A DNA stretch of 64,000 nucleotides, from the NCBI GenBank assembly GCA_963930775.1, contig OZ005699.1, forward strand, positions 8,887,501 through 8,951,500. The letters run 5' to 3'. Source of the stretch: Cliona cf. orientalis (Eukaryota; Porifera; Demospongiae; Clionaida; Clionaidae). Below the pieces are notes generated by a model. That model did not search any database. It saw nothing but the letters and a program-made list of their open reading frames with translations, and was not told the DNA's origin. A program made the translations under genes and the position numbers. Shown here piece after piece: positions 11,501-37,211 of the stretch; positions within the stretch are counted from its first letter, which is position 1; each line of letters starts with the position of its first letter.

Positions 11501-13962
11501 TGCATGTGACACCACAGCTTGTTCTGAATATTATTACCATGATATTATATTCGGAGGGTTATACATATCACAGTTTGCCCCTTAAGAGGCTAAGTTCTTC
11601 CGATTACAGGACCATGCATGCAATCATAGCAAGCTAGCTCATTATTCTGATAGTCAATGGATGTGTGTCAAAAATGAATTATTGAGCCATAATATGCATG
11701 ATGACGTTGTGTTCTTGTTGAATACACAGGTTGTTTCTGTCCCAGAGGCTTTGTGGAGAAAGGTGACTCATGTGTGGTACCAGAAGAATGTGAACCTGAA
11801 GTTGACCTTTGCTCCCTCCCACCCGTGACCGGTCTCTGCCTAGCCTACATCCCTCGTTACTTCTACAACAAGAGGTCTGAGCAGTGCGAGCAGTTCGTCT
11901 ACGGCGGTTGCGGTGGAAATGATAATAATTTTGAGACAGTGGAGGAATGTGAAGCCAGATGCAGCAGTGGCAATGGTGAGAGAGAGAGGTCTCAGTACAT
12001 AGCTGCATATTATGCCAAGGCAGTATTTATTGAGTCTACACATTAATATTATCATGGGCAACAGGGATATTTATAACATAGTGATTCATTGCACCATATA
12101 GCACAAGGGTGAAGCAGCCTGAGAGCTGCATGATGAGCGCATGCATCCCGAGTTGAAATTTTGTGCTTAAGTGAACACTTTCATACAATTTAATTTAAAG
12201 GGATCAACTGATCCATGAACATTAATTTCAAGAGCCCTTATTATTAGAGCTTCTATCCACATTACAAACATTATCAAATTTTACTTCATGCACACACATG
12301 ATCATGCATTAGAAACTGAAGAATTTGAGTGCCCCAATGGTAAGGAGTACCAGGAGTGTGGCACCAGCTGCCCCACCACTTGCAGGAACAAGGATGAGAA
12401 TCGTACTTGCACCTCTGAATGTGTCCAAGGTAAACCACATCTCATGCTTAGCTTTCCATTAATTAAAGTAGCCAGTTAAGTGTAGCCGACAGCAAATGGA
12501 TGTATGTCAAAAATGAATTATTGAGCCATATGCATGATGATATTGTGTTCTTGTTGAATACACAGGTTGCTTCTGTCCCAAAGGCTATGTGGAGAAGGGT
12601 GACTCATGTGTGGTACCAGAAGAGTGTGAACTTGAGGCTGACCTTTGCTCCCTCCCACCCGAGACCGGTCCTTGTAAAGGCTACTTCCGTCGTTACTTCT
12701 ACAACGAGAGCTCTGAGCAGTGTGAGCAGTTCGTCTACGGCGGTTGCCGTGGAAATGATAACAACTTTGAGACAGTGGAGGAATGTGAAGCCAAATGCAG
12801 CGGTGGAAATGGTGAGAGGTCTCAATACATAGCCGCGTATTATGTCAAGGCAGTATTAAATGATTTATTGAGCTCTATATAATAATATATGGTCTCTACA
12901 ATCATACTAACTTATCACGGGCATCAGAGATATGTATAATCAAAGCGCAAGGGTGAAGCAGCCTGGGAGCTGATGAGCGCATGCATCCCGAGTTGAAATT
13001 TTGTGCCTAAGTGAACCCTATGATCATGCAGTTTAAAGGGATCAACTGAACATCTTATTATTATAGCTATTATCCACATTACAAAAATTATTGACTTCAT
13101 GCACACACATGATCGTGTTAGAAACTGAGGAGTTTGAGTGCCCCAATGGTAAGGAGTACCAGGAGTGTGGCACCAGCTGCCCCACCACCTGCAAGAACAA
13201 GGATGAGATTCGTATTTGCACCTTTGAATGTGTCCAAGGTAAACCACATCTCATAACAAAATGTCATACTTAGTTTGTAGCTACCATTAATTTTCATGGT
13301 GAAGTATGCATGCATACGGAAGGGTCAGTCTATGCTATGGTGCTCTAGTACATACAGTTTGGCTGCTATCAAGTTGACAACACAGACACAAATGAATGAT
13401 AATATTATTATTATTATAAATGAATGAATGTGAATCCTGGGCTCCATGGATCCATATTATTAGGCTATTAAAGTCTGAATTATCATGCTCATACTAGCAC
13501 TATAGAATCACTCAGGTCACTGCCATGGTTTATCTTCATTATCTCAGGTTGCTTCTGTCCCTCTGGTACTGTTGAGCTAGGTGACAAATGCATAGCTCCT
13601 GATGAATGCCCAGCCGTCAATACAACAGTGTTACCAGAGGAAGAGTGTCCGGAGGGAATGGTCTATAAAGAGTGTGGAACTGCCTGTCCCACCACCTGTG
13701 AGAATATAAAGGATATGCAAGTGAGGCCATGCACTCTCCAATGTGTGCAAGGTATGTACGTATAGCGAGAAGATCCGGGACATAAAATTAGCTGTAATGA
13801 TCTGTGATTATGAATCAGCATTGTAAATCGTAAAAAATTTAATCCATCATCTCCATCCGGGCTGCAGGTTGCTTTTGTGCTGGTGACACCATTCTATTGG
13901 AAGAGGGAGGAAATGAATGTGTCTCTAATGATCAGTGCCCTTCCAATTGGAGTGTTGGTTAA
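8502..13962 (+). CDS. Secreted Kunitz and TIL multi-domain protease inhibitor
   Basis: Fourteen exons: 8502-8577, 8708-8920, 9489-9563, 9590-9886, 10166-10348, 10637-10741, 10845-11042, 11236-11433, 11730-11975, 12313-12429, 12566-12811, 13122-13238, 13548-13751, 13868-13962. All introns are phase 1 and the joined frame gives 789 residues. Signal peptide 1-23 ends in ANA. Residues about 26-220 form an unrecognised Cys-containing domain. Then come Kunitz 1 (about 222-281), three TIL domains, Kunitz 2 (about 470-530), TIL 4, Kunitz 3 (about 594-650), TIL 5 and TIL 6. Kunitz domains show FxYGGCxGNxNxF; each TIL shows ECGTxCPxTC and GCFCP, and is always split by an intron before GCFC. P1 residues (after the second Cys) are Arg, Leu and Lys, predicting trypsin-like, chymotrypsin/elastase-like and trypsin-like targets. 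Likely role is extracellular protease inhibition in defence or matrix control. Confidence 0.88.
9939..10134. mobile_element. MITE with CAGTGGAAT termini (pogo/Tc1-mariner-like)
   Basis: 196 bp in intron 4 of the Kunitz gene. It starts CAGTGGAAT, ends ATTCCACTG, and is flanked by TA on both sides, the target duplication of Tc1/mariner and pogo elements. Internally the two halves also match inversely around TGGCCAC. A related fragment begins at 48213. Confidence 0.7.
11655..13260 (+). repeat. Tandem duplication of a Kunitz-TIL exon pair
   Basis: Copy 1 (about 11655-12490) and copy 2 (about 12495-13260) each contain the end of an intron, a 246-bp TIL-Kunitz exon and a 117-bp TIL exon. Intron sequence is also shared, including the stretch around GTCAAAAATGAATTATTGAG before the large exon. 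Exon lengths are identical, so the duplication is recent and preserved frame because all introns are phase 1. Confidence 0.85.
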
Positions 13963-14279: not shown

Positions 14280-17200
14280 ATGGAGATAGATCAAAAAGTA
14301 AACAGTTATTATTAAACTGGTGTAAGTAGCTAATCCTTGAGGTGGTTTGTCTTGTAACTACAGATTGATCTCCTCCACCCTTTTGCTTCACTGAATTGGA
14401 GGGAGTGTAGGGGACCACCTGTGGATATTGGTGATGCCGATGCAGTGTGGCTGAATGATAAGGTCTATATAGGAGGAGGAGCAACATCAGAAAGTTTCAG
14501 ATATGCAGCCAGGCTCTATATCTACACCCCAGCTACTGATACATGGACTACACTGGACACTCCGGTGTGCTGGTTTGGCCTCACCACCTACCACTCCCAG
14601 CTGGTACTGGTTGGAGGGAGGGAGTATGTTGGTCCAAATGTTTTGGGAGAAGCTACAAATAAACTGTGGACATTGAGTGAAGATAGTCAGTGGCAGGAAA
14701 TTCTTCCTCCTATGCCAACACCATGCACTAATACATCTGCTGTGAGTCATGGAGATCATCTCCTGGTGATTGCTAATGGTATTCCTAACGAAGTTTATGT
14801 GTACAATGGTCATCACTGGGCAAGTGCACAACATCCACCTCAGCAGCTGAACTCCGTCAAGTCCACTGTCTTCAATGGTCACTTGTATCTGATGGGAATA
14901 ATACTGCATGAATCACAAAAAACCTGTGTTTATTCTGCCTCCCTGGACTCGCTCCTAGCCAGCTGTCAACCCAGTGAAATGTCACAGCCATCATCTCTAT
15001 GGAAGAGACTGACCGATGTTCCTAGTGAATGGTGCTGTCCTGCTGTGTTTGGAAACAGGCTGGTTGCTGTGGAAGGATCATCATCTCTCTATGCCTACCT
15101 CTCCCTCACCGGTACCCAGGCCTGGAAATACATGGGAGATACTCCACCAATACCGATTTATTCCCCTCCCTGTGCTGTACCTCTCCCCTTCAATGAGTTG
15201 ATGATTGTAAATGAATGGACAGCATTCCGATCTAAACTCACGTGTAAGTTTATTACTGTCAGTGGAGTAGGAAGCAATTACGTGTTGCGAGGACCACCGA
15301 TACAAGTTGTGGGTGTGGCTTTGATTACTCACCACAATTATTCTTATGTAGAGGTCGTATTTTGGTAATTTAAAACCAGACTTTTGCGAGGAAAGTGATA
15401 CATGATGAGAATACATACATAAGGGCTGTGTATTAAGCCTGATTATTGGGGGGGAGGGGGGCAGTGTCCCCCCCCCCCCCCCGAAGTTCCTACTCCATTG
15501 ATCATCATAAAACTACTTGCATTGTTATTCGTAGCTATAAGTTCTGAGATAAAAGCATTACAGAAGACATCCTTACCTTGGTTCTGCTACTTATTTTCAA
15601 TCATTTCTCGACTATTCAAAAAGCAGTCCTAAAAACATAATCTATCGCATTAAGAAGCAGTGGCGGATTTAAAGGGGGGCCTGAGGGGGCACAGGCCTGC
15701 CCTGTTATTGTACCTTTGTTGGTCACATGCTAATATTATGTGTTTATTTGCACTTCGCTAGAATTTCTCACTCAATTCTGTGCATCATAATTATTAATTA
15801 TAGTGATAATACTTCACTCAGGCCCCCTCTATAGATAAACCTAAAATCGCCACTGTTAAGAACTTCAAGTATCACTCCAATATTAATGAAGATCTAGAAT
15901 AAGAGCTGCCCTTGATTAGTAGCAGCACTCCAGCAAGGTCGAGATTAATAGTAGCCGCGACTATAATGCGGTAATAGAGTATAATGAACTCATTTGTATT
16001 GCAGTGACACCTTTTGATCCCGAGAGTCCATTTACCCTGAGAGCTGTGTCTCTACTGGAATCAGCTGCTGGTATCCCAGTGATGACAACACTGACTGACC
16101 ACACTCGCCATATTCAGAGTATCCTTGGTCTACAAATGACCACTAACCTTGATCTGAAGGGAGTGTTAAGCTATTGGATAAGCGGCATACCGTGGTTAGC
16201 TCCATCATGGCGAAATCTTCTCCAGATCATTCGTCTCTTCAACCAGGATGAGCTAGCCCAGAGGATGGAGACTTATCTCAGTGCCGGAGCAACAGAGGAG
16301 CTCTCTCCTACTAGAGGAAAACAAGGTGAGCTGGGAGGATAGTGTCAGCTGTAGCTACTCTCATTACATGTCAGGGTTTCATCCAGAAAAAAATTTTTGG
16401 GGGAGAAGTGGGCATGGCAGTTTCACGCACCGTGACCCCTCCCCCAATTAAGCATGATATGGATTAATGATTGTGTTTTCTGATGTCACTGAGGTATTGC
16501 ATAATTTTATCTAGTGCTCTTAAATAATTGAGTCATGAAGTAGGAGACTATACTGATCACTTGCAATGGGACGCAAAAATATACATGCTCCCCTTCCCCA
16601 ACCATGCACCTCTCTCTCTTTCTTTCTCTCTCTCTCTCTCTCTCTCTCCTTTTCCTCTTTTCTTCTTTCTCTCTTTCTTTTTGGGGGGGGGGGGGGGGGG
16701 GGGGGGAAGCTGGGTGTTTTGAGGGGGAAGCTTCCCCCCCCCCACTGGATGAAATCCTGCATGTGTGCTGTGTTCTAGGAGATGAAGAAGTGGATGAGCA
16801 GATACGGTTGAGAGATGACGTGATTTTTCAACTGAAGCAGCAAATGGCTACACAACAGCAGAGGATTGCTGATCTTGAGTATACAAACAAAGAACTTGAA
16901 GAATTATCCCAAATACCGATTGAGGAGGAAGGTATATCCATTGATTTGTACCAACAATAGCCTCTGCTTGCTTGTTTAGTGTATGTGTACACATAACGTA
17001 TGTGTGTGTGTGTGTGCTCGTAGAAGATGATCAGAAAGATACTAAACCAGGAATTCCTGGCGTGAAGACAGAGCTCAAAGAGGAACCACTAACTCTTGAA
17101 AAAGAGCGAGGAGTAAAGAGGGAGATCAAGGAAGAAGCTGTGCCAATAACCAAAGCCGAGACAACATCTGCTCAACCCACTACTGGTATGTCATCTCATT

Positions 17201-19610
17201 CTATCACTGCAATAGTTTGTGGAGCTAGCTACATGTCCACAGCCACCTGGAACTTGCGTGGTGTAGAAGTGTGTGGAGAAATGACAGTGCATGTGGTGGT
17301 CCATTCTTCTCATGGTCAGCAAATCACTTGGCCTGGCTATGGCCTGAGGCTCAACATCCCTAAGGGCTGTCTTCCAGCAGGCATGGAGCAGTGCACCATC
17401 AACATCAAGGCCTCTCTAGCTGGCCAGTATGAGTTCCCTGAGAACTCCCATCTGGTCAGTGCCATCTTCTGGCTGCGCTGTGAGGATGTGCACAAGTTCA
17501 CTAAACCAATCACAGTGGAAATCCAGCACTGCGCTAAGTCAGAGAATGTTACTAATCTTAAGTTGAGTTTTGTTCGAGCTGTTTGCAGTCAGGAACAGCT
17601 CCCCTACACCTTCAAACAGCTGCCGGGGGGTAACTTCACCAGCCACAGCTCCTATGGAGTCATTGAACTGAACAGTTTCTCTGGAGTGGGAGTAGCACAA
17701 GAGGGGTCAGAGGACAGGGAATACTGTTCACAACTCTTCTATCTTGGAAAGCCTACTCTGTGTAAAATTCATTTTGTAGTGTCATGGAATGTTGAAGCTC
17801 ATCTCACTGTGAGTTAGTTATCAATGCAATACAACTGCAGTTAGGCTATTGCTCTCTCTAGGAGGTAAAAAAGGAGTACAAAGAAGGCGCTATACTTGGT
17901 GTACACCAACTTGTAGAATTCGAGGCAGATGCCATCTCCCTGGACATTCCCATGGAGGGCCTCTCTATCAAAGGCTGGAAGATCACACCACTGATGCGCC
18001 CTGTGGTGAGTTCTTGTGTACACCATATCCAGCCAGCATAGAAACCAACTTCCCTCACTGCTCAGGTGACCAAGAAGCAGGTGGACAACTTTAGAGAGGG
18101 CAAGTCCACTCCATGCTGCCAGCTAAAGGCCGAGGTCTCTGGAAAGAGAAAGAAGATCCCACGATTGAGTCATCAAGTCAAGTTAGAAGGAGCTAAATAT
18201 CCACACAATGTATTCACCATTGACCTTCCTGCTGAAGGTATGTATTATTTTATGCCAACCATGACATTACAATAGCTTCATGCATACTCCTTTCTCCCAT
18301 CCCCTTTTTCCAGATCCTAATTCTCAACCGGCAAAGACATTTGGAGACTTTGCAGCAAGTATACTAGACAAAATTAACCACTCACTCTGATAATACCACT
18401 ATTAAAAACAGATTGTCAAGGTCCCCCTCCCAGCAAGAGAACTAGACTGTCTGAACCATCTGCTTCTGGTGCATCTTCAGCCAATGGCCTGGATACAAAG
18501 CTAGGTGAGTGGTAATAATCATGCATGTACATGTACACAGTGTTTCATACAGAACCATGGCTTTTGAGATAACTATGTTGGGGAGCTGATGCCATTTGGG
18601 GTGGGAAAGTAATACAAAGTATAGCAGTGAGAGAAAATCTTGAGGGGGGAAACTTGAGCTTTGGGGTGGGAAATCCCAGGGCACCCCACCCTCTGTATGA
18701 AACACTGGTACATGTATATAATATTGGATAAAAAAATTAGTGTTCTTTTTGTGCGTAAATGTGGGTTGAAACGTTGTTTAACCCGAGTTAACCAAAGGAG
18801 GGTGTGCCAACTAGGGGGCGGGGCAGCATGTACACTGCACGTATGCTTGATGGCAAGTGCGCATGCGCAGGGCGAAGCGTGCCAAAATCTAATGCTAGTC
18901 AGCTCCTGCCAGTTTGTCATTTCTCAGTCTCAGTCGACTATCAAGGCTTTGGCAGCAACAAAACGTTGTGACTTGCTAACAAAAGCTCCCACCCTCCCAC
19001 CTCCAGCCTCACAAAATCTCATCCAACCGATCCAACCGGTTGTGACCAGAACCTTGCCTGAGGACCAAATGGGGACAAGAGCCTATCCCCATCACTTGTA
19101 TCTCCAAGGAAACAGATGCAGGGGAAGGAAGGCGGAGGCCTGGCCATACACATTCCACAAAACACTCAGGTGTGGCATCATAGAGCACAGGGATAGGCCT
19201 CACGGAGCTAAAAATTAACAAGCCCCACCTCAGGCAGGGTACGCCCTGTAACACAAACCTCGCTTTACCTAATATGGGCAGGCAAATTTAATAAGTACGA
19301 CGCAATGTTTATATTCTTTGCAGTGAAACCAAAGCTAAAAGATCTCCTAAGGGAACTCTACAGCAAAGCTTCAAAGTGGATGAACATTGGTGTCCTCCTT
19401 GACATAGATACGGGGAGACTGGATGCGATCAAGACTGCTGAAAATCATGCACCTGATGATTGTCTTCGTGAGATGCTGATGATTTGGCTGAAGGGGGTTC
19501 CCCCTCCTCCCTCTTGGGCAGCCATTGCTGAGGCTGTTGAAGTGCTAGGAGACCAGAACCTTGCTAATCAACTGAGAACCAAGTATCATGTCCCCCCACA
19601 CCAAAACTAG
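14280..19610 (+). CDS. Kelch / Death-like / ZU5-UPA / Death protein, paralogue A
   Basis: Ten exons: 14280-14297, 14364-15243, 16005-16325, 16779-16931, 17024-17808, 17862-18005, 18066-18237, 18314-18358, 18412-18504, 19324-19610; joined frame 965 residues. Residues about 7-299 are a Kelch-type beta-propeller (repeats with VYIGGG, LVLVGG, WTTLDTP). About 300-406 is a Death-like helical domain ending PSWRNLLQIIRLFNQ. About 407-457 is a coiled coil. About 471-494 is a linker with four SUMO-type motifs (VKTE, LKEE, VKRE, IKEE). About 545-680 is ZU5 (GYGLRLNIPKGCLPAG), followed by a UPA-like segment (about 681-825), a basic PPPSKRTR stretch and a C-terminal Death domain (about 872-958). ZU5-UPA-Death is the supramodule of UNC5, PIDD and ankyrins. 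No signal peptide or TM, so cytosolic or nuclear signalling is expected. The short eighth exon is the least certain. Confidence 0.85.
15658..15855. mobile_element. hAT-type MITE in intron 2 of gene A
   Basis: Termini CAGTGGCGGATTT and AAATCGCCACTG (inner ends imperfect) fit the hAT pattern CAGNG. The flanks are TTAAGAAG and TTAAGAAC, an 8-bp duplication with one mismatch, the expected hAT length. Confidence 0.7.
16372..16759. mobile_element. Inserted MITE with CAGGGTTTCATCCAG termini
   Basis: The 453-bp intron 3 of gene A differs from the 67-bp intron of paralogue B by this block. Termini are CAGGGTTTCATCCAG and CTGGATGAAATCCTG. The flank CATGT is doubled (16367-16371, 16760-16764), while B has a single empty-site copy. 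The interior carries a CT tract and a long G run. Confidence 0.82.
16608..16706 (+). repeat. CT microsatellite followed by poly-G run
   Basis: Tandem CT/TTTC tract (about 16608-16682) running into more than 20 G (16683-16706), inside the MITE at 16372-16759. The open frames it creates are not genes. Confidence 0.8.
18538..18707. mobile_element. MITE with CAGTGTTTCATACAG termini
   Basis: 170 bp in intron 9 of gene A. Termini CAGTGTTTCATACAG and CTGTATGAAACACTG are near-perfect inverted repeats, flanked by GTACA on both sides (18533-18537, 18708-18712). Same terminal pattern and 5-bp duplication as the element at 16372-16759, so both belong to one family. Confidence 0.8.
18852..18863. promoter_or_regulatory. 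NRF1-like palindrome in intron 9 of gene A
   Basis: GTGCGCATGCGCAG inside an 819-bp intron. It could mark an internal promoter before the Death exon or belong to a repeat; no start exon is evident. Confidence 0.3.
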
Positions 19611-19916
19611 CCAACACCACACAAGACAAGACTAGTGATATTCCATCAGAAATTATGCTTACATTCTCTACATCAATAATATTCTAGGTCAATGCGGTTC
19701 TATGATAGCTAGAATCTCGTGCCCAGGACATACAGCACCCCCCCCCCCCCCCCCCCCAATGTCATTATCTGTACATGTATCCCCGCTCAATTGCAAGTAG
19801 CTAGAATGACGACCTTTACCAAACATACGTGCACGCCACACCCCTATCATAGTTTGGGGGTGGGGCGCGTCAGAGTAACCTTTGAACGCAGAGCTATGTA
19901 GCAGCTTAAGAGATCA
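19611..19916. other. Spacer between paralogues A and B
   Basis: 306 bp including a poly-C run at about 19737-19758. It should contain the 3' end of A and the promoter of B. No clear AATAAA or NRF1-like site seen. Confidence 0.5.
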
Positions 19917-21405
19917 ATGGAGATGGATCAACCGGTAAGCAGGTATAATTTAATTGGTGTAAGATCTAAGCCATGAAATGATTTGTCTTGTCCAGATTGA
20001 TATCCTCGACCCTTTAGCTTCACTGGAGTGGAGGGAGTGTATGAGACCACCTGTGGATGTTGGTAATACTGCCCATGCAGTGCAGCTGAAGGACAAGGTC
20101 TATGTGGCTGGAGGAGTAACATCAGGAAGTTTCAGATCTGCAGCCAGGCTCTATATCTACACCCCAGCTACTGATACATGGACTACACTGGATACTCCAG
20201 TGTACTGGTTTGGCCTCACCACCTACCACTCCCAGCTGGTACTAGTCGGAGGGAGGAAGTATGTTGGTGAGAAAGTTGGTGGTGAACTCACCAATGAACT
20301 GTGGATATTGAGTAAAGGTGGTCAGTGGAAGGAAACTACTCTTCCTCCTATGCCAATATCATGTGATAATCCATCTGTTGTGAGTCATGGAAACCATCTC
20401 CTGGTGATTAGTGCTAACGAAGTTTATGTGTACAATGGTCATCACTGGGCAAGTGCACAACATCCACCTCAGCAGCTGCACTTCATAAAGTCCACTATCT
20501 TCAATGGTCACTGGTATCTGATTGGAAGTGGAGGAATTGTTTATTCTGCCTCCCTGGACTCGCTCCTAGCCAGCTGTCGACCCAGTGAGACCTCACAGCC
20601 GTCATCTCTATGGAAGAGACTGACCGATGCTCCTAATCGATGGTGCTGTCCTGCTGTGTTTGGAAACAGGCTAGTTACAGTAGTAAAAGGATCAACTGGT
20701 ACCTCCATCTCACTATCTCTCTATGCCTACTCCCCCCTCACCCAGTCCTGGGTACACATGGGAAATGCTCCATCAACATCAATTTATCTTCGTAGTATTT
20801 CCACTCCCTGTGCTATACTTCTCCCCTCCAAGGAGTTGATGATTGTCAGTAGACAAAAAGGATTCCTATCTAGACTCAAATGTAAGTCTAATAGCCATAC
20901 AGCTATCTATAACAGGGGCGGAGAAATAGGGGGGGGGGGCAGAGGGGGCTTCAGCCCCCCCCCATTTTATCACATGCCATACTACAAAACTACAGCAACA
21001 TAGTTCTGGTGTTTGCAAAAGAGTGCTCGAGTAGAAATTGCAGTTCAAAAATTGCTGCCATATGCATCAGAAACGCTCTCAGAGAGTCGAAATTTCCAAA
21101 ATTTTCTGGGGGAGCATGCCCCCAGACCCCCCTAGGTGGGCTGTGGGCATATGCCCATAGCCTAACTGTTGTCACAGTACTGAGTCAAACCCCCCCCCCC
21201 CCCCCCCCCCCCACTTTTGCTACCTGTTCTCCGCCCTTGTATATTTATCATAGAGTCAGTAGGCTCTATAAGTAGGGATGGCCTGGAAATGCCATGTATG
21301 AAATACAAAACAATGACTTAGAGCAACTGAAGTTTTAAGATTTCAAACTTTCATATTTGCAGGGTGTAGGAAGCAAATTTTGGTTGGTCAGGCATGATGT
21401 GCCCC

Positions 21406-21436
<31 letters not shown>

Positions 21437-24400
21437 AAGCAGTTCAGTTAGCATTCACTTTCAGGAGAATTCTTTGCCTGTGTAGTAGTTTGCATTGCTA
21501 CCAGGCAAATAGGTCAAAGTTCATTCCCGAGCCTGTTTCCACATGCTTGTATTATTAAAAGTGAGCGCTATTCAGAACTTTGAGCAGAGTGCTAGCTAAA
21601 TTTCATGAATATAGTTTTCAATTGTATCATGAAAGCAGGCTCAGTATTGGTCCGGCAGCCGCCGGATCTGCCGGACCTGTTCCTACGCCCCTAATTGAGT
21701 AGCCCATGTCCTACCACTTCATGATCACCCTCCACAGTTTGTACATGCTCGCGTGCTTGCAATTCTATATAATATAGGTATATAGTAATACATTCATTCA
21801 TACTGCAGTGACACCCTTTGATCCAGACAGTCCATTTACCAGGAGAGCCTTGTCTTTACTGGAATCAGCTGCTGGTATCCCAGTGATGTCAACACTGAGT
21901 GACTACACTCATCACATTCAGAGCATCCTTGGTCTGACATCGACAATGATCATTAATGATCTGAATATACTGTTAAACAAGTGGACAAGCGATATACAGT
22001 GGCCATCTCCATCATGGCGAAATCTTTTCCTGATTATTCGTCTCCTCCACCAGGATGAGCTAGCCCAGAGGATGGAGACTTACCTCAGTGCCGGAGCAAC
22101 AGAGGATCTCTCTCCTACTAGAGGAAAACAAGGTGAGCTGGGGGGAATAGTGTCAGCTGTAGCTACTCTCATTGCATGTGCGTGTGTGCTGTGTTCTAGG
22201 AGATGAAGAAGTGGATGAGCAGATACGGTCGAGAGATGACGTGATTTTTCAATTGAAGCAGCAAATGGCTACACAACAGCAGAGGATTTCTGACATTGAG
22301 CATAGAAACAAAGAGCTTGAAGAACTATCACAAATATCAATCAAGGAAGAAAGTATGCCCATTTACCAATAATAGCCTTTGCTCACTTATTCGGCGTATA
22401 TTATTATGTATGTGTACATAATACCAAGGGCTTAATCTATAAGCCCTTGATAATACCCAAATTATGTGTATGTGCATAATATACAACGAAAAATATTTTT
22501 CAGAGCGACAATTTTCTTATATAGTCCGTGTCATTACATGAGGGCATGGATACACGTCTTGGAAGTGCCCGGTTGCTATGAACGCGCGGCGCGGGCGGAG
22601 AGAAAGTCCGCACTACAAGGCTCAGTATAGTGGCCCAGAGGGACACTCCGAATCTGACATACGAAGCTAAAAATATCGGATATCGCGGTATCGTTTCCGA
22701 AATCCGAGATACAGTAAAATGATCTAAATATCGGATCTCGGATCTCGGACTTCGGGACGTTACAAGCGAAAATATCGGATCTCGGACTTCGGGAGTAACT
22801 GTTAGTTATTGATTATTAGTAACGGTTGAATGGAGCCACTGAGCTGGTAGAGCTGAGGGGGTGCTCAAGCCCTCTGAACCCACTGGCCCCCTCTTCGGTC
22901 CTTAATTCACGGTATCTTTAGTAGCTACCGCTGATACATAGACCAGCTATAAAAGAAAAGGGGAGTGGCATGCATGGGAACGAGGGTAATAATTTATATA
23001 ACTTAGTGGCTATTTTTACCGCACCGTAAATGGCGGCAGCGTAACAGGGTTTGGGTTTGGGTGGGGTTTTAGGGTTTTAGTAGGGGTTTGGGCTACATGG
23101 TGAAGTCTAGAGCTTGCTGCAGAGCTTCGCTGAAGAGATACGAGCCGATCTTAAATGCGCATGCGTGAACGCGTTGCATAGTGAATGTATTGACTTCCTG
23201 CCGTAAAAATAGCAACGGCGTTTATATAATGACCATCTAGAGTTGGAGCCATCTGATCAACACAGTTTCTGCCAGCTCGGAAGTCGGACTTCGGAGTATA
23301 ATAAGCAGGATTTGGAATGCGGATTTCGGAGTATTTAATTGAATTTGTACCATGGTTGTAACATTCTGACCAATCAGATTGATTTATAGAAGGTGTCTAA
23401 ATAAAATAGACACCTCCTAGGAGGTGTCTATCTAGATAGACACCTACCTCTGAGGCTATGAAATTTTACATGATCATGCCTGCTAGGGTAGTTATAGCAT
23501 CTTTTGTTAGTGAAAGAGATAAAGTACAGAGCTCTAGTGCTATGCAGAGTACTCTATGCAGATGATTAGTGGGCAGGTCTTACTGCGTTAATTGAATGGG
23601 TGGAGCGAATGATTTGCCAAGTCAGCAGTAGTAAAAAAAACTGAGCTGCACTCTGATTACCTCGAGTTAAAATCAAGATAGCGATGACATGGCAGGCCTT
23701 TTATACGCAGAGACGATAGTATTGTGGTTCTGAATGTCAAGGAAGAAGCTCGAGTTGGACAGAAAACGGCGTCGGCTCACTATGCATCGATGTCCAGCGT
23801 CGACTCGATCGATGACGATGGTTTGAACTGTTGCTAGGTACGCGCTCGAACCTTTTATGGCCGGCGCTGTAGTTGCTAGGCCATAGATACGTTGTCAGGA
23901 CCACGTAGCCCATGGTACAAGTCGGTTACATCACTCGGTTCGGTCTCTACGCGATTTACACAGCCTCGGGCCTCCGGCCCTCGGTGTGTAAATCCCGTAG
24001 AGACCTCCACCTCGTGATGTAACCTATACTAGTATTAAAGTAGGATTTCGGAGCCGTAAATTTAGAAACTCGGACTTCGGAACTCGAACTTCGGTCCTTA
24101 ATGAGCGCCAATATAATTCGGAACTCGGACTTCAGAATTAGAATTTGGAGTGCGTTCAAACCATTGCCGAACTTGGACCGTAACAGGATAGCCTACAGTG
24201 TGCTAACTTACTTGTGGCATCATTGCATGCGCAACTATCCACTGTCATCAACAGGGGCAGAACAAGTATATTGAAAGTGGTGGGGTTTAGAAGTTGCGCG
24301 CGTAAGCGCGCGGCGAAAATTTTGGGTTTGCCACGCCCACTTTTGGAGTTTGAAGGATACAAAATTAATATATAATAGTTAGAGACCAAGTCCAAGGTCT

Positions 24401-27400
24401 CTACGCATTTTAAGAGACCCGAAGGCCCGAGGCTGTAGCATCCCGAGCGAAGCGAGGGTGCTACTAAGGGCCTGAGGGTCTCTTAAAAGCGTAGAGACCA
24501 TTGGACGAGGTCTCTAACTGGTTTAGAATATAGCAACTGTAACCGTGGTAGTTGACCTGAGGACTAGGCTACTGTTGCACTGTGCATCTTTCTTTGCCCT
24601 TGGCTATACTTGTAGGTCTCTATGAAACTTGTAGGTCTCTATGAGAAATAGAGACCTCTGAGTGTCCAATCAGATCACAGTATTTGTTACAACTATATTC
24701 TAAACACGTATAGGTTACATCACGAGGTGGAGGTCTCTACGGGATTTACACACCGAGGGCCGGAGGCCCGAGGCTGTGTAAATCGCGTAGAGACCGAACC
24801 GAGTGATGTAACCGACTTGTACCATGGGCTACGTGGTCCTGACAACGTATCTATGGCCTAGCAACTACAGCGCCGGCCATAAAAGGTTCGAGCGCGTACC
24901 TAGCAACAGTTCAAACCATCGTCATCGATCGAGTCGACGCTGGACATCGATGCATAGTGAGCCGACGCCGTTTTCTGTCCAACTCGAGCTTCTTCCTTGA
25001 CATTCAGAACCACAATACTATCGTCTCTGCGTATAAAAGGCCTGCCATGTCATCGCTATCTTGATTTTAACTCGAGGTAATCAGAGTGCAGCTCAGTTTT
25101 TTTACTACTGCTGACTTGGCAAATCATTCGCTCCACCCATTCAATTAACGCAGTAAGACCTGCCCACTAATCATCTGCATAGAGTACTCTGCATAGCACT
25201 AGAGCTCTGTACTTTATCTCTTTCACTAACAAAAGATGCTATAACTACCCTAGCAGGCATGATCATGTAAAATTTCATAGCCTCAGAGGTAGGTGTCTAT
25301 CTAGATAGACACCTCCTAGGAGGTGTCTATTTTATTTAGACACCTTCTATATAATAGTTAGAGACCAAGTCCAAGGTCTCTACGCATTTTAAGAGACCCG
25401 AAGGCCCGAGGCTGTAGCATCCCGAGCGAAGCGAGGGTGCTACTAAGGGCCTGAGGGTCTCTTAAAAGCGTAGAGACCATTGGACGAGGTCTCTAACTGG
25501 TTTAGAATATAGCAACTGTAACCGTGGTAGTTGACCTGAGGACTAGGCTACTGTTGCACTGTGCATCTTTCTTTGCCCTTGGCTATACTTGTAGGTCTCT
25601 ATGAAACTTGTAGGTCTCTATGAGAACTTGTAGGTCTCTATGAAAACTTGTAGGTCTCTATGAGAAATAGAGACCTCTGAGTGTCCAATCAGATCACAGT
25701 ATTTGTTACAACTATATTCTAAAAATCAATCTGATTGGTCAGAATGTTACAACCATGGTACAAATGCATATAAAATTACTCTAAGTGTGCCTTCGTTCTG
25801 TATTATGTGGTGACGCTGATTATGCAAAACTAATCGCGCTTGACGATCCCGTACCACATTCGTTAAACGAGTGATGCAGAGTGGTGGGGCTATGCCCCCA
25901 TGCCCTGAGAAGTGGTGGGGCTATATATAGCCCCACCGTCTGTGCTGCCCTTGATCAATATCAATATCATAGGCTTGTACAGTTGCTGTAGCTATGGCCA
26001 CACTCTCGCTGTTACTCCCGAAGTCCGAGATCCGATATCCAGGTCATTTTACCGTATCTCGCCTCTGCAACCGCTTCCATCTGCGCATGCGCACGTTACT
26101 AATGGGCTATGTTTGTGAGCATGTACTCTGTAACTGTTATTAAATACATGATCATGCATGCTAGCCACATTATCCCATGATTGTGACATTAAACATACTT
26201 GTGTATTTTGAAAATTAACAACTCCATATGGAATCATTGAACTGCACTATAATATTATAATCCATAGAACAACTAGATCGCTGCATCATGACTACTAGAC
26301 GTGCAAGGTGAGAGATACAATTATACCTAAACATTATTGGAGTTCACGTAATACTTTCACTACATAGACGGGTACAACTATTAGGATCTGACCATCCACG
26401 ACGCAGTCCTCGTTTGAGCCAGCATTATAGTAGTCAACCACCAGAAATGATTTCTTCTCATCCTCTAGTTCAGTCTCGACGATGTCTCAGACCAAGTGCT
26501 AATGTAGAACCTGCCAGTATTCTTGATGAGAGTGGTCAAAGTGTTCTTCCATGTTTTTATGGAGATGTGCCAGAACAGCCTGTAAAGGAAGCTGATGGTC
26601 CATTGCACAGCCATACCTTACAGCACGGTTTGCTAGAGCACCTCTATGGTATGTGAGTAACTGGGTGACATAAATTTATAGTTTCTCATTCCTGCCTACC
26701 GTACCTGTTCTAATTAAGGCGCCTCTCTAATATCAAACCCAAACCCAAACCGAGGCAGAAGTGAGATAGGTGAGATACCTCACCTATCTCACTTCTGCCT
26801 CTATCACCATCCGTTTTTACCCGATTGCCTGGAAATAATGTACAAATACAAGATACTCAGTACTATCGAGATATTGTCAGCTGTACATGTAAGTATACCG
26901 GTACTGCTATACAGAAACTAAGATTCATTCATTCAGGATTCATGACATTGCAATGTACTAGTTGCTAATTAATATTATACATAACCAGCCAGTTAAGGTA
27001 TGCTTTGTATTGGGTAGGGCTTGTAGAAGATGATACTATACTGTTTGTACATGAAGAGAAGCCAGTTGCTCTCCTTCCTGGCGTGAAAACAGAGCTCGAA
27101 GAGGAACCACTTACTCTTGAAGAACAACAAGAACATGTTCTCCTTTCAGTGAAGAGGGAGATCCAAGAAGAAGCTGTCCCAGTGACCAAAGCTGAGATAA
27201 CATCTGCTCAACCCACTACTGGTATGTCATCTCATTCTATCACTGCAATAGTTTGTGGAGCTAGCTACATGTCCACAGCCACCTGGAACTTGCGTGGTGT
27301 AGAAGTGTGTGGAGAAATGACTGTGGTGGTCCATTCTTCTCATGGTCAGCAAATCCCATGGCCTGGCTATGGCCTGAGGCTCAACATCCCTAAGGGCTGT

Positions 27401-28964
27401 CTGCCAGCAGGCATGGAGCAGTGCACCATCAACATCAAGGCCTCTCTAGCTGGCCAGTATGAGTTCCCTGAGAACTCCCATCTGGTCAGTGCCATCTTCT
27501 GGCTGCGCTGTGAGGATGTATGCAAGTTCACTAAACCAATCACAGTGGAGATCCAGCACTGTGCTAAGTCAGAGAATATTACTAATCTAAGCTTTGTTCG
27601 AGCTGTTTGCAGTCAGAAACAGCTCCCCTACACCTTCAAACAACTGCCAGGGGGTAACTTCACCAGCCACAGCTCCTATGGAGTCATTGAACTGAACAGT
27701 TTCTCTGGAGTGGGAGTAACACAAGAGGGGTCAGAGGACAGGGAATACTGTTCAAGAATTTTTTACATGCCTTCAAGTCATGAAGTACCTGAAAATCGCG
27801 AAATACAATTTGTGGTGACCTGGAACGAGGAGACCCATCTAACAGTGAGAAATTTTCTATAGATAAGAATTATTATAATTATTATTATAGCTCATAATTT
27901 ATTGTTGCTTTGTATACATGACTTACGTAGGTGATAAAAAATGAATATAATGAGAAAGGTGCTCTAGTTGGCCCTCACCAACCAGTAAAATTTGAGGCAG
28001 ATGCCATCTCCCTGGACATTCCCATGGAGGGCCTCTCTATCAATGGCTGGAAAATCACACCACTGATACGTCCTGTGGTGAGTTCTTGTGTACACCATAT
28101 CCACCCAGCATAGCAACCAACTTCCCTCACTGGCTTCAACCTCAGGTGACCAAGGAGCAGGTGGACAAGTTTGAACAGGGCAAGTTGACTCCATGCTGCC
28201 AATTATTTGCTGAAGTTTCTGGAAAAAAGAAAAAGGTCCCAAGTTTAAAACATCAAGTCAATCTGATAGGAGCAAAGTATCCTAACAATGTCTTTGTCAT
28301 CAACCTTCCTGCTGGAGGTACGTGTAAATACACATTACTTCAAGTGTTGTACTCACTATATTATTATATTAAACCATTACGAATGATTATACAGACGCCT
28401 CGCGCCTTCAAGAGAGATTACAGACATCTAGAGACCTAAATGCAGGTACACTATCTCAGTTACTTATTTACAATAATAATTATTATAGTGATTACTAATT
28501 CCAGGTCCTCCACCCATCAAGAGAAGTCGATTGCTTTGCAATGATTCATTTTCTAGTGACCTCAGTCTAAGTCAGATGTCATACGAATCAGATAATACAA
28601 CTAACACTGCAGTGGCTACTGGATTGGATACTAAACTAAGTACAATGCAAATTAATACTCCTGTGCTTTCTGACATCAAGCTTTCTTTGTTTCAGACCTC
28701 AATTCAGACCATTTCAAAGTCACCCAATACCTACAAAATCTCGATGAGAATCACATTTATACAGTGGGAGGAGCTCTGGGACTCTCTTATAGCACACTGC
28801 ATAAGATGACCAAGTACTCTGATGAGATAGTCGCAGCCTGGCTGAGGAAGGAGGACCGTGTGATGAATATGAGTGGAGAGCCAACATGGAGGAGTCTGGT
28901 GGAGGCACTCAGGAAAATAGGGCAAGAAGGAATTGCTAGAAATATTGAGGAGAAAGAAAGCTGA
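19917..28964 (+). CDS. Kelch / Death-like / ZU5-UPA / Death protein, paralogue B
   Basis: Exons 19917-19934, 19996-20881, 21809-22132, 22200-22352, 27027-27844, 27931-28077, 28146-28317, 28395-28445, 28505-28639, 28696-28964; joined frame 990 residues, same domain order and intron positions as gene A. The Kelch and ZU5 parts are close to A. The linker keeps VKTE and VKRE but loses two SUMO-type Lys (LEEE, IQEE). The C-terminal Death domain (from 28696) is very different from that of A. Intron 4 (22353-27026) is 4.7 kb against 92 bp in A, because of a repeat nest. Two possible alternative first exons inside it (26288-26307, 26368-26648) join in frame to the ZU5 exon. Whether the full-length form is still spliced across the nest cannot be told from sequence. 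Confidence 0.8.
20913..21239. mobile_element. hAT-type MITE in intron 2 of gene B
   Basis: Termini CAGGGGCGGAGAA and TTCTCCGCCCTTG are inverted repeats of hAT style. The interior has poly-G and poly-C runs that mirror each other. No clear target duplication. Confidence 0.55.
21402..21439 (+). repeat. Poly-C then poly-A run
   Basis: About 24 C followed by 12 A in intron 2 of gene B; probably the tail or core of an old element. Confidence 0.6.
22660..24155. repeat. Degenerate TCGGA-rich repeat (R), interrupted
   Basis: Repeats of ATCGGATCTCGGACTTCGGG-like units at 22670-22800, 23276-23340 and 24040-24155, with an inverted stretch at about 26015-26065. They form the host sequence into which the F and X elements are inserted. 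Confidence 0.6.
23344..24028 (+). mobile_element. Hairpin-ended element F, copy 1
   Basis: Runs from TTTGTACCATGG to GATGTAACCTATA, about 685 bp. It contains a 20-bp palindrome around CTCCTAGGAG, a 24-bp palindrome around TATCTAGATA, and a terminal hairpin (about 23924-24024) with stem GGTTACATCAC and a GGGCCTCCGGCCC-like core. A nearly identical copy lies inverted at 24709-25764. No coding capacity. Confidence 0.75.
24371..24704 (+). mobile_element. Hairpin-cored repeat E2, copy 1
   Basis: The left half (24378-24520) folds into a long stem built on AGAGACC / GGTCTCT, with the mirror-symmetric core CCCGAGCGAAGCGAGGG in the loop region. The right half has two tandem units like CTTGTAGGTCTCTATGA and ends CCAATCAGATCACAG then TTGTTACAACTAT. 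Confidence 0.75.
24709..25764 (-). mobile_element. Element F, copy 2 (inverted, interrupted by E2)
   Basis: Reverse complement of 23344-24028 at near-100% identity by eye (for example 7 against 8 A in one run). It is split by an E2 insertion near 25351-25721. Together with copy 1 it makes a large inverted repeat with a 680-bp spacer. Confidence 0.8.
25351..25721 (-). mobile_element. Hairpin-cored repeat E2, copy 2
   Basis: Same sequence as 24371-24704 but with four instead of two tandem CTTGTAGGTCTCTATGA units; inserted in F copy 2 at CCTTCTATA. The strand given refers to its host F copy; E2 itself reads in the same direction as copy 1. Confidence 0.75.
26083..26096. promoter_or_regulatory. 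NRF1-like palindrome before alternative first exon
   Basis: CTGCGCATGCGCAC about 195 bp upstream of the ATG at 26288, in intron 4 of gene B. The spacing matches that seen at two gene starts in this window. Confidence 0.45.
26288..26648 (+). CDS. Candidate alternative first exons of gene B
   Basis: ATG exon 26288-26307 (GTGAGA donor) and exon 26368-26648 (TAG acceptor, GTATGT donor) give 100 codons starting MTTRRAR. They end in phase 1, exactly what the ZU5 exon at 27027 requires. The product would be a basic, Ser/Arg/Pro-rich N-terminus (RRSPRLSQ) joined to the SUMO-motif linker, ZU5, UPA and Death, without Kelch. An unrelated gene start is the alternative. Confidence 0.5.
26752..26801. repeat. 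Perfect 22-bp hairpin with 6-base loop
   Basis: Arms 26752-26773 and 26780-26801 are exact reverse complements, built around AGTGAGATAGG and CCTATCTCACT. It lies in intron 4 of gene B, 225 bp before the ZU5 exon. Confidence 0.85.

Positions 28965-29200: not shown

Positions 29201-37211
<8,011 letters not shown>

Follow-up and report, generated by a model that had tools for sequence, protein, structure and literature searches.

What does a sponge gene encode when it joins a Kelch propeller to a ZU5-UPA-Death module, and what might its product do? This question is raised by two tandem genes on the plus strand of a 64,000-nucleotide stretch of the Cliona cf. orientalis genome (C11:8887501-8951500; hereafter, the window). 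Both proteins have the domain order Kelch, Death-like, coiled coil, ZU5, UPA and Death. We consider it reasonably likely that these Kelch-ZU5-Death proteins are PIDD/UNC5-like autoinhibited Death platforms with a variable sensor, which act in immune or cell-death signalling.

Gene structure of the tandem pair

Six-frame reading together with GT-AG splicing gave ten exons for each gene. Gene 1 (14280-19610, 965 amino acids) begins with the first base of its ATG at 14280, and its exons lie at 14280-14297, 14364-15243, 16005-16325, 16779-16931, 17024-17808, 17862-18005, 18066-18237, 18314-18358, 18412-18504 and 19324-19610. Gene 2 (19917-28964, 990 amino acids) ends with the last base of its stop codon at 28964, and its exons lie at 19917-19934, 19996-20881, 21809-22132, 22200-22352, 27027-27844, 27931-28077, 28146-28317, 28395-28445, 28505-28639 and 28696-28964. 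All 18 introns have GT-AG borders, and both reading frames are intact, with no in-frame stop. The gene 1 exons were recovered unchanged by a spliced-alignment script for which the gene 1 protein itself was the guide. The intron phases (0,1,1,1,0,0,1,1,1) are identical between the two genes and 668 of the 1012 aligned protein positions are identical, which bears out the originally predicted tandem duplication.

Domain organization of the two proteins

The Kelch propeller exons (14364-15243 in gene 1; 19996-20881 in gene 2) contain Kelch repeats, matching Pfam Kelch_6 at 35.2 bits (1.1e-8) and 41.4 bits (1.3e-10), respectively, against a cut-off of 25.3; the gene 1 exon also matched Kelch chains of the PDB (best, 1.8e-4). 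A ZU5 domain is present in both proteins, barely above the Pfam cut-off of 21 bits, at 23.3 bits in gene 1 (17251-17679, amino acids 534-676) and 21.5 bits in gene 2 (27287-27703, amino acids 548-686). The UPA-like part had no Pfam match in either gene. It was placed at 17680-18233 in gene 1 (amino acids 677-823; the end of exon 5 plus exons 6 and 7) and at 27704-28313 in gene 2 (amino acids 687-838) from alignment (A1 for gene 1) and from the fold of a Halichondria panicea homologue, P0004. When the model of P0004 was compared with known folds, its UPA resembled those of CARD8, NLRP1 and UNC5b and its Death domain resembled that of FADD; the modelled fold of this homologue supports the identity of the UPA and C-terminal Death domains in the window genes. 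A profile search of the PDB with the ZU5-UPA alignment returned just the ZO-1 ZU5 (0.83) plus unrelated chains. The structure model of the window ZU5 exon itself had a mean predicted local distance difference test score (pLDDT) of 40 and was set aside for fold searches.

The C-terminal Death domains of the two genes belong to two very different types, a difference that the original prediction does not mention. In gene 1, the exon at 19324-19610 is of type A (FADD/PIDD/RAIDD-like), whose profile A7, made from three type A sequences of the Cliona genome and four of other proteins, matches FADD at 1.1e-5, PIDD weakly at 0.014 and CRADD at 0.019. Its Pfam Death score was 15.7 bits in the whole protein and 21.1 bits for the domain alone, with a cut-off of 22.6. 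The type B exon of gene 2 (28696-28964) scored 16.6 bits, below the same cut-off, and was aligned with type A by hhalign at 1.1e-6 (probability, 91%). Judged by these profiles, both genes appear to end in a Death domain, gene 2 less firmly than gene 1.

The middle Death-like exons (16005-16325 in gene 1; 21809-22132 in gene 2) are weakly assigned, from hhalign between domain profiles: the middle-domain profile A5 aligned with the two C-terminal Death profiles at 1.2e-5 (42 columns) and 2.2e-6 (39 columns). A Pfam Death match was obtained for this domain in three of ten homologues (best, 0.0042), and the domain scan of gene 1 gave none. Searches of the PDB with the middle Death-like and type B Death profiles returned no Death chain. 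The coiled coil is putative, called by eye from the look of QLKQQMATQQQRIADLE in the gene 1 exon (16779-16931), where Pfam matches are weak; the gene 2 exon (22200-22352) is 86% identical. In Pfam searches, neither gene matched LRR, and NACHT was not matched at E up to 10. Each protein has a single ZU5 stretch, not the two of PIDD1.

Splicing, Pfam and the homologue fold together upheld the architecture that had been predicted. In domain profile searches, it stood for Kelch and ZU5, which exceed the Pfam cut-offs, and fell short for the unmatched UPA, the C-terminal Death domain under its cut-off and the unmatched middle domain of gene 1.

The window genes belong to a large family

Gene 1 and gene 2 are real, intact members of a large family and not a one-off tandem pair. 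The same domain join was found in H. panicea, where five gene models fuse Kelch with ZU5-UPA, three of them with a C-terminal Death domain by Pfam. Since these five models join Kelch and ZU5, the placement of the two on separate transcripts is disfavoured. Of 15 protein hits, 11 are named sponge proteins.

The Cliona genome (216.8 Mb) was searched with parts of the window genes. The Kelch-to-coiled-coil query gave at least 104 match rows (93 of 613 candidates scored), and ZU5 was found at at least 22 places with at least 67% identity, plus one fragment (85 of 1068 candidates scored). By our count, 12 of the 22 ZU5 places have a Kelch exon upstream on the same strand among the Kelch matches listed. 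The ZU5-exon query, with all 128 candidates scored, gave 114 match rows down to 25% identity. A single locus may account for more than one row, and generic ZU5 domains (e.g., control L002) are among the lowest matches. Nine genomic loci were assembled and modelled. Eight of them have Kelch, the middle domain, the coiled coil, ZU5 and UPA, and tblastn located a Death exon in each of these eight, which completes the domain order. At the remaining locus (C7_1090), Kelch was not found within 8.1 kb, and it was excluded from the ten-paralogue alignment.

Four more distant ZU5 loci were also read. Upstream of ZU5, a NACHT exon lies at two of them and a ROC-COR-like exon at the other two, at gaps of 0.5-3.8 kb; L050 and L051 were picked for a known NACHT match nearby, so that two of four is no frequency, and sensor type played no part in the choice of L052 and L053. 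At L050 and L051, the NACHT exons lie 0.5 and 3.8 kb upstream of hub-family ZU5 exons on the same strand, and L050 carries LRR besides NACHT. At L052, Roc (23.7 bits; cut-off, 27) and COR-A (32.5 bits; cut-off, 35.3) are both below the Pfam cut-offs, and the adjoining stretch has no Pfam match. As adjacency read in genomic DNA, these NACHT and ROC-COR exons are candidate fusions to ZU5. Among proteins, a ZU5 stretch 51-55% identical to that of gene 1 is combined with Death and NACHT in P0005 and P0006, and P0013 and P0014 of H. panicea are ankyrin-repeat versions of the ZU5 family. A PADLOC scan of P0008 and P0012 gave no match.

Contrasting evolution of sensor, hub and Death exon

The ten paralogues were compared by part, with ZU5 taken as gene 2 residues 535-672 and UPA as residues 673-838, a cut 14 residues before Phe-Ser. 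Mean amino acid identity was 0.92 for the ZU5 part, 0.74 for UPA, 0.73 for Kelch and 0.44 for the Death exon. The ratio of nonsynonymous to synonymous substitution rates (dN/dS) was 0.91 (0.74-1.14) for Kelch and 0.66 (0.44-0.93) for the middle domain, and 0.29 for both ZU5 (0.18-0.45) and UPA (0.21-0.39). Kelch is near neutral, whereas the ZU5-UPA hub is constrained. The low dS of the ZU5 part (0.126, compared with 0.586 for UPA) suggests gene conversion there.

Variable sites made up 52 of 97 positions in the Kelch loops and 15 of 169 elsewhere, a comparison biased to some degree because we assigned the loops ourselves, from the Kelch motif, after the variability had been seen. Loops such as these form the ligand face of Kelch propellers. 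Positive selection on the loops was considered and is not supported by the dN/dS analysis.

Type A Death is found in gene 1, C11_9154 and C11_9413, and type B in the other seven paralogues. A single type A clade was not rejected on the Kelch, DD-CC and ZU5 parts (p-AU of the approximately unbiased test, 0.072, 0.219 and 0.348), but rejected on the UPA part (p-AU, 2e-58). Since the UPA tree rejects this clade, Death exons have probably been exchanged between paralogues.

Proposed function

The gene structure, domain order, homologue UPA and Death folds, paralogue family, dN/dS contrast and departure of the Death exon from the UPA tree were observed; autoinhibition, ligand sensing, a trigger, adaptors and an immune or cell-death output are proposed. 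Each gene would encode an intracellular signalling platform, in which the Kelch propeller detects a ligand through its variable loops and the middle Death-like domain and coiled coil aid oligomerisation. ZU5 would pack on UPA and keep the UPA-Death end shut, as in UNC5b and the FIIND of NLRP1/CARD8. A signal in the Kelch half would then unlock this clamp and free the UPA-Death end, which may join Death-domain adaptors to elicit cell death or defence signalling. The innate-sensing or cell-death role in the original prediction fits the family context (dN/dS, Death exchange, and NACHT and ROC-COR neighbours), although the role itself is drawn from family resemblance.

More tentatively, and with less confidence than we place in the autoinhibited platform, the ZU5-UPA clamp could be a shared hub for which a sponge lineage swaps sensors (Kelch, NACHT-LRR, ROC-COR and ankyrin repeats) and Death outputs by exon exchange, giving combinatorial innate receptors beside classical NLRs; self-cleavage and NLRP1-like release may occur in some members. 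If so, a clamp known from PIDD and from the inflammasome sensors NLRP1/CARD8 would serve sponges as a general hub that takes swappable sensing heads. This would bear on the origin of animal Death-domain platforms, and whether clamp release is older than vertebrate inflammasomes would become testable.

Self-cleavage and other explanations

CARD8 and NLRP1 cleave themselves at SF|S (PMC3210808, PMC8081665). The ZU5/UPA junction of the window proteins reads NSF|S, at Phe676-Ser677 in gene 1 (17677-17682), aligned by eye with published CARD8 peptides, and at Phe686-Ser687 in gene 2 (27701-27706). The products might be NLRP1/CARD8-like sensors, in which ZU5 would cut itself at F|S during folding, the halves would stay associated, and loss of the Kelch half would free UPA-Death; we regard this as unlikely. 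Both window genes and all nine paralogue models have Phe-Ser at this site, and in a sample of 40 of the 114 ZU5 rows, 38 of the 39 informative rows keep FS or FC (34 FS, 4 FC and 1 LS; one site was missed, and the LS stretch also contains a stop). Of the nine H. panicea proteins spanning the site, six carry HFS, the form found in PIDD, and a His near the position of the CARD8 catalytic His is seen by eye in six. In P0004, F658|S659 comes immediately before the stretch matched by NLRP1 UPA (from residue 660), with low model confidence at residues 641-670. However, at the top eight Pfam ZU5 loci in the genome, which fall outside the close family, six of the seven readable domains also carry F[SC] by eye (2 FS, 4 FC, one without; L003 unreadable). 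Because these control loci carry the motif too, it is generic to ZU5 in the Cliona genome; F-S is therefore not strong evidence for self-cleavage, which ranks as a rival reading. The published catalytic His of CARD8 (H270) and NLRP1 (H1186), ahead of the cleavage Ser, has no clear counterpart in the window sequences: residues 639-674 of gene 2 and the same stretch of gene 1 contain no His. His675, which lies 12 residues before the Ser and is conserved across the ten paralogues, might take its place. Autoinhibition without cleavage, as in UNC5b, would fit the data equally well. The four sampled loci with Phe-Cys instead of Phe-Ser at the ZU5 end are L072, L074, L075 and L089.

Two further explanations have some points in their favour. 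Ankyrin-B was the top Foldseek match, and ankyrins and UNC5 have ZU5-UPA-Death yet are not known as immune sensors, as would suit a scaffold or guidance-type protein that uses its Kelch and ZU5-UPA-Death parts to hold cytoskeletal or membrane partners in place, without a defence role. Moreover, the 4.7-kb intron of gene 2 holds a repeat element and some paralogue models contain stops, as might occur with decaying copies or with neighbouring genes or pseudogenes merged into one model. For a scaffold, however, an expansion to 114 ZU5 match rows would be unusual, as would a Death exon departing from the UPA tree, and we find this explanation rather improbable. An artefact is hardly credible: gene 1 and gene 2 are both intact and share their intron phases, the intron 4 position is short in most paralogues, and the same domains are fused in H. 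panicea gene models.

Relation to known systems

Among the known systems closest to the window proteins is PIDD1, which also has sensor repeats followed by ZU5, UPA and Death, with F-S at the ZU5 end (PMC3210808, PMC3482391), and which the type A Death profile matches weakly (0.014). PIDD1 differs in having LRR, two ZU5 domains and HFS, where the window proteins have Kelch, one ZU5 and SFS (PMC3210808, PMC3482391). The window proteins further have the extra Death-like domain and coiled coil, and their cleavage is hypothetical. The FIIND proteins NLRP1 and CARD8 carry CARD where the window proteins carry Death, their published catalytic His is without a window counterpart, and NLRP1 has NACHT-LRR in place of Kelch. 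CARD8 is also without NACHT-LRR. The cytoplasmic part of UNC5b and the ZU5-UPA-Death part of ankyrins lack Kelch, unlike the window proteins; UNC5 is a receptor that spans the membrane, and ankyrins have ankyrin repeats.

A lineage-specific expansion of ZU5 in sponges, possibly serving defence, was mentioned in 2012 (PMC3482391), and NACHT-Zu5 architectures in early animals are named elsewhere (PMC12909245); the word Kelch is absent from the main texts of both papers, and the excerpts describe no sensor or Death-exon exchange. TRADD-N/Death expansions in the sponge Amphimedon appear in a 2021 eLife survey (PMC8195603), and for invertebrate NLRs, NLRC and NLRD types alone are reported (PMC11508797). 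In one of two sponges, a Kelch-motif gene is listed with a strongly negative log fold change upon exposure to microbial elicitors (PMC6208332). In the open-licence literature on Kelch with ZU5, sponges, invertebrates and Death, we found no report of the Kelch-ZU5-UPA-Death architecture. The sponge ZU5 expansion is already in print, and this architecture is an apparently unreported variant of ZU5-UPA-Death proteins.

Other features of the locus and genome

Intron 4 of gene 2 (22353-27026), which is swollen by a repeat element that the original prediction does not mention, is 4674 bp long, compared with 92 bp in gene 1. Its repeat element is palindromic, with inverted arms of ~645 bp at 23385-24029 and 24708-25351 that are 99.8% identical, and direct repeats lie at 24369 and 25348; the element is either recent or due to assembly. 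Upstream of gene 1, a gene at 11705-13765 has a Kunitz/BPTI domain and repeated Cys-rich stretches, TIL-like by eye, and likely encodes a protease inhibitor. Downstream of gene 2, 29290-31760 holds a WW-domain gene, splicing-factor-like by eye, plus a long GA-rich simple repeat.

Kelch propellers also occur in other contexts. At L094 (C11:7976000-7979000), an exon 50% identical over 96 amino acids to the ROC-COR-Death-like P0002 sits downstream of a Kelch exon, L020, of a second Kelch clade (54% identical); a weak middle-domain match was seen in four other members of that clade and not in L020. In the predicted protein P0001, a related Kelch propeller (56% identical) is fused to PF00665, an integrase core domain. 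In L095 (C4:10774500-10777500), a member of the large C4 Kelch cluster, Kelch is preceded by a protein kinase and a coiled-coil-like stretch, an arrangement like that of Dysidea avara P0003 with the context partly reversed.

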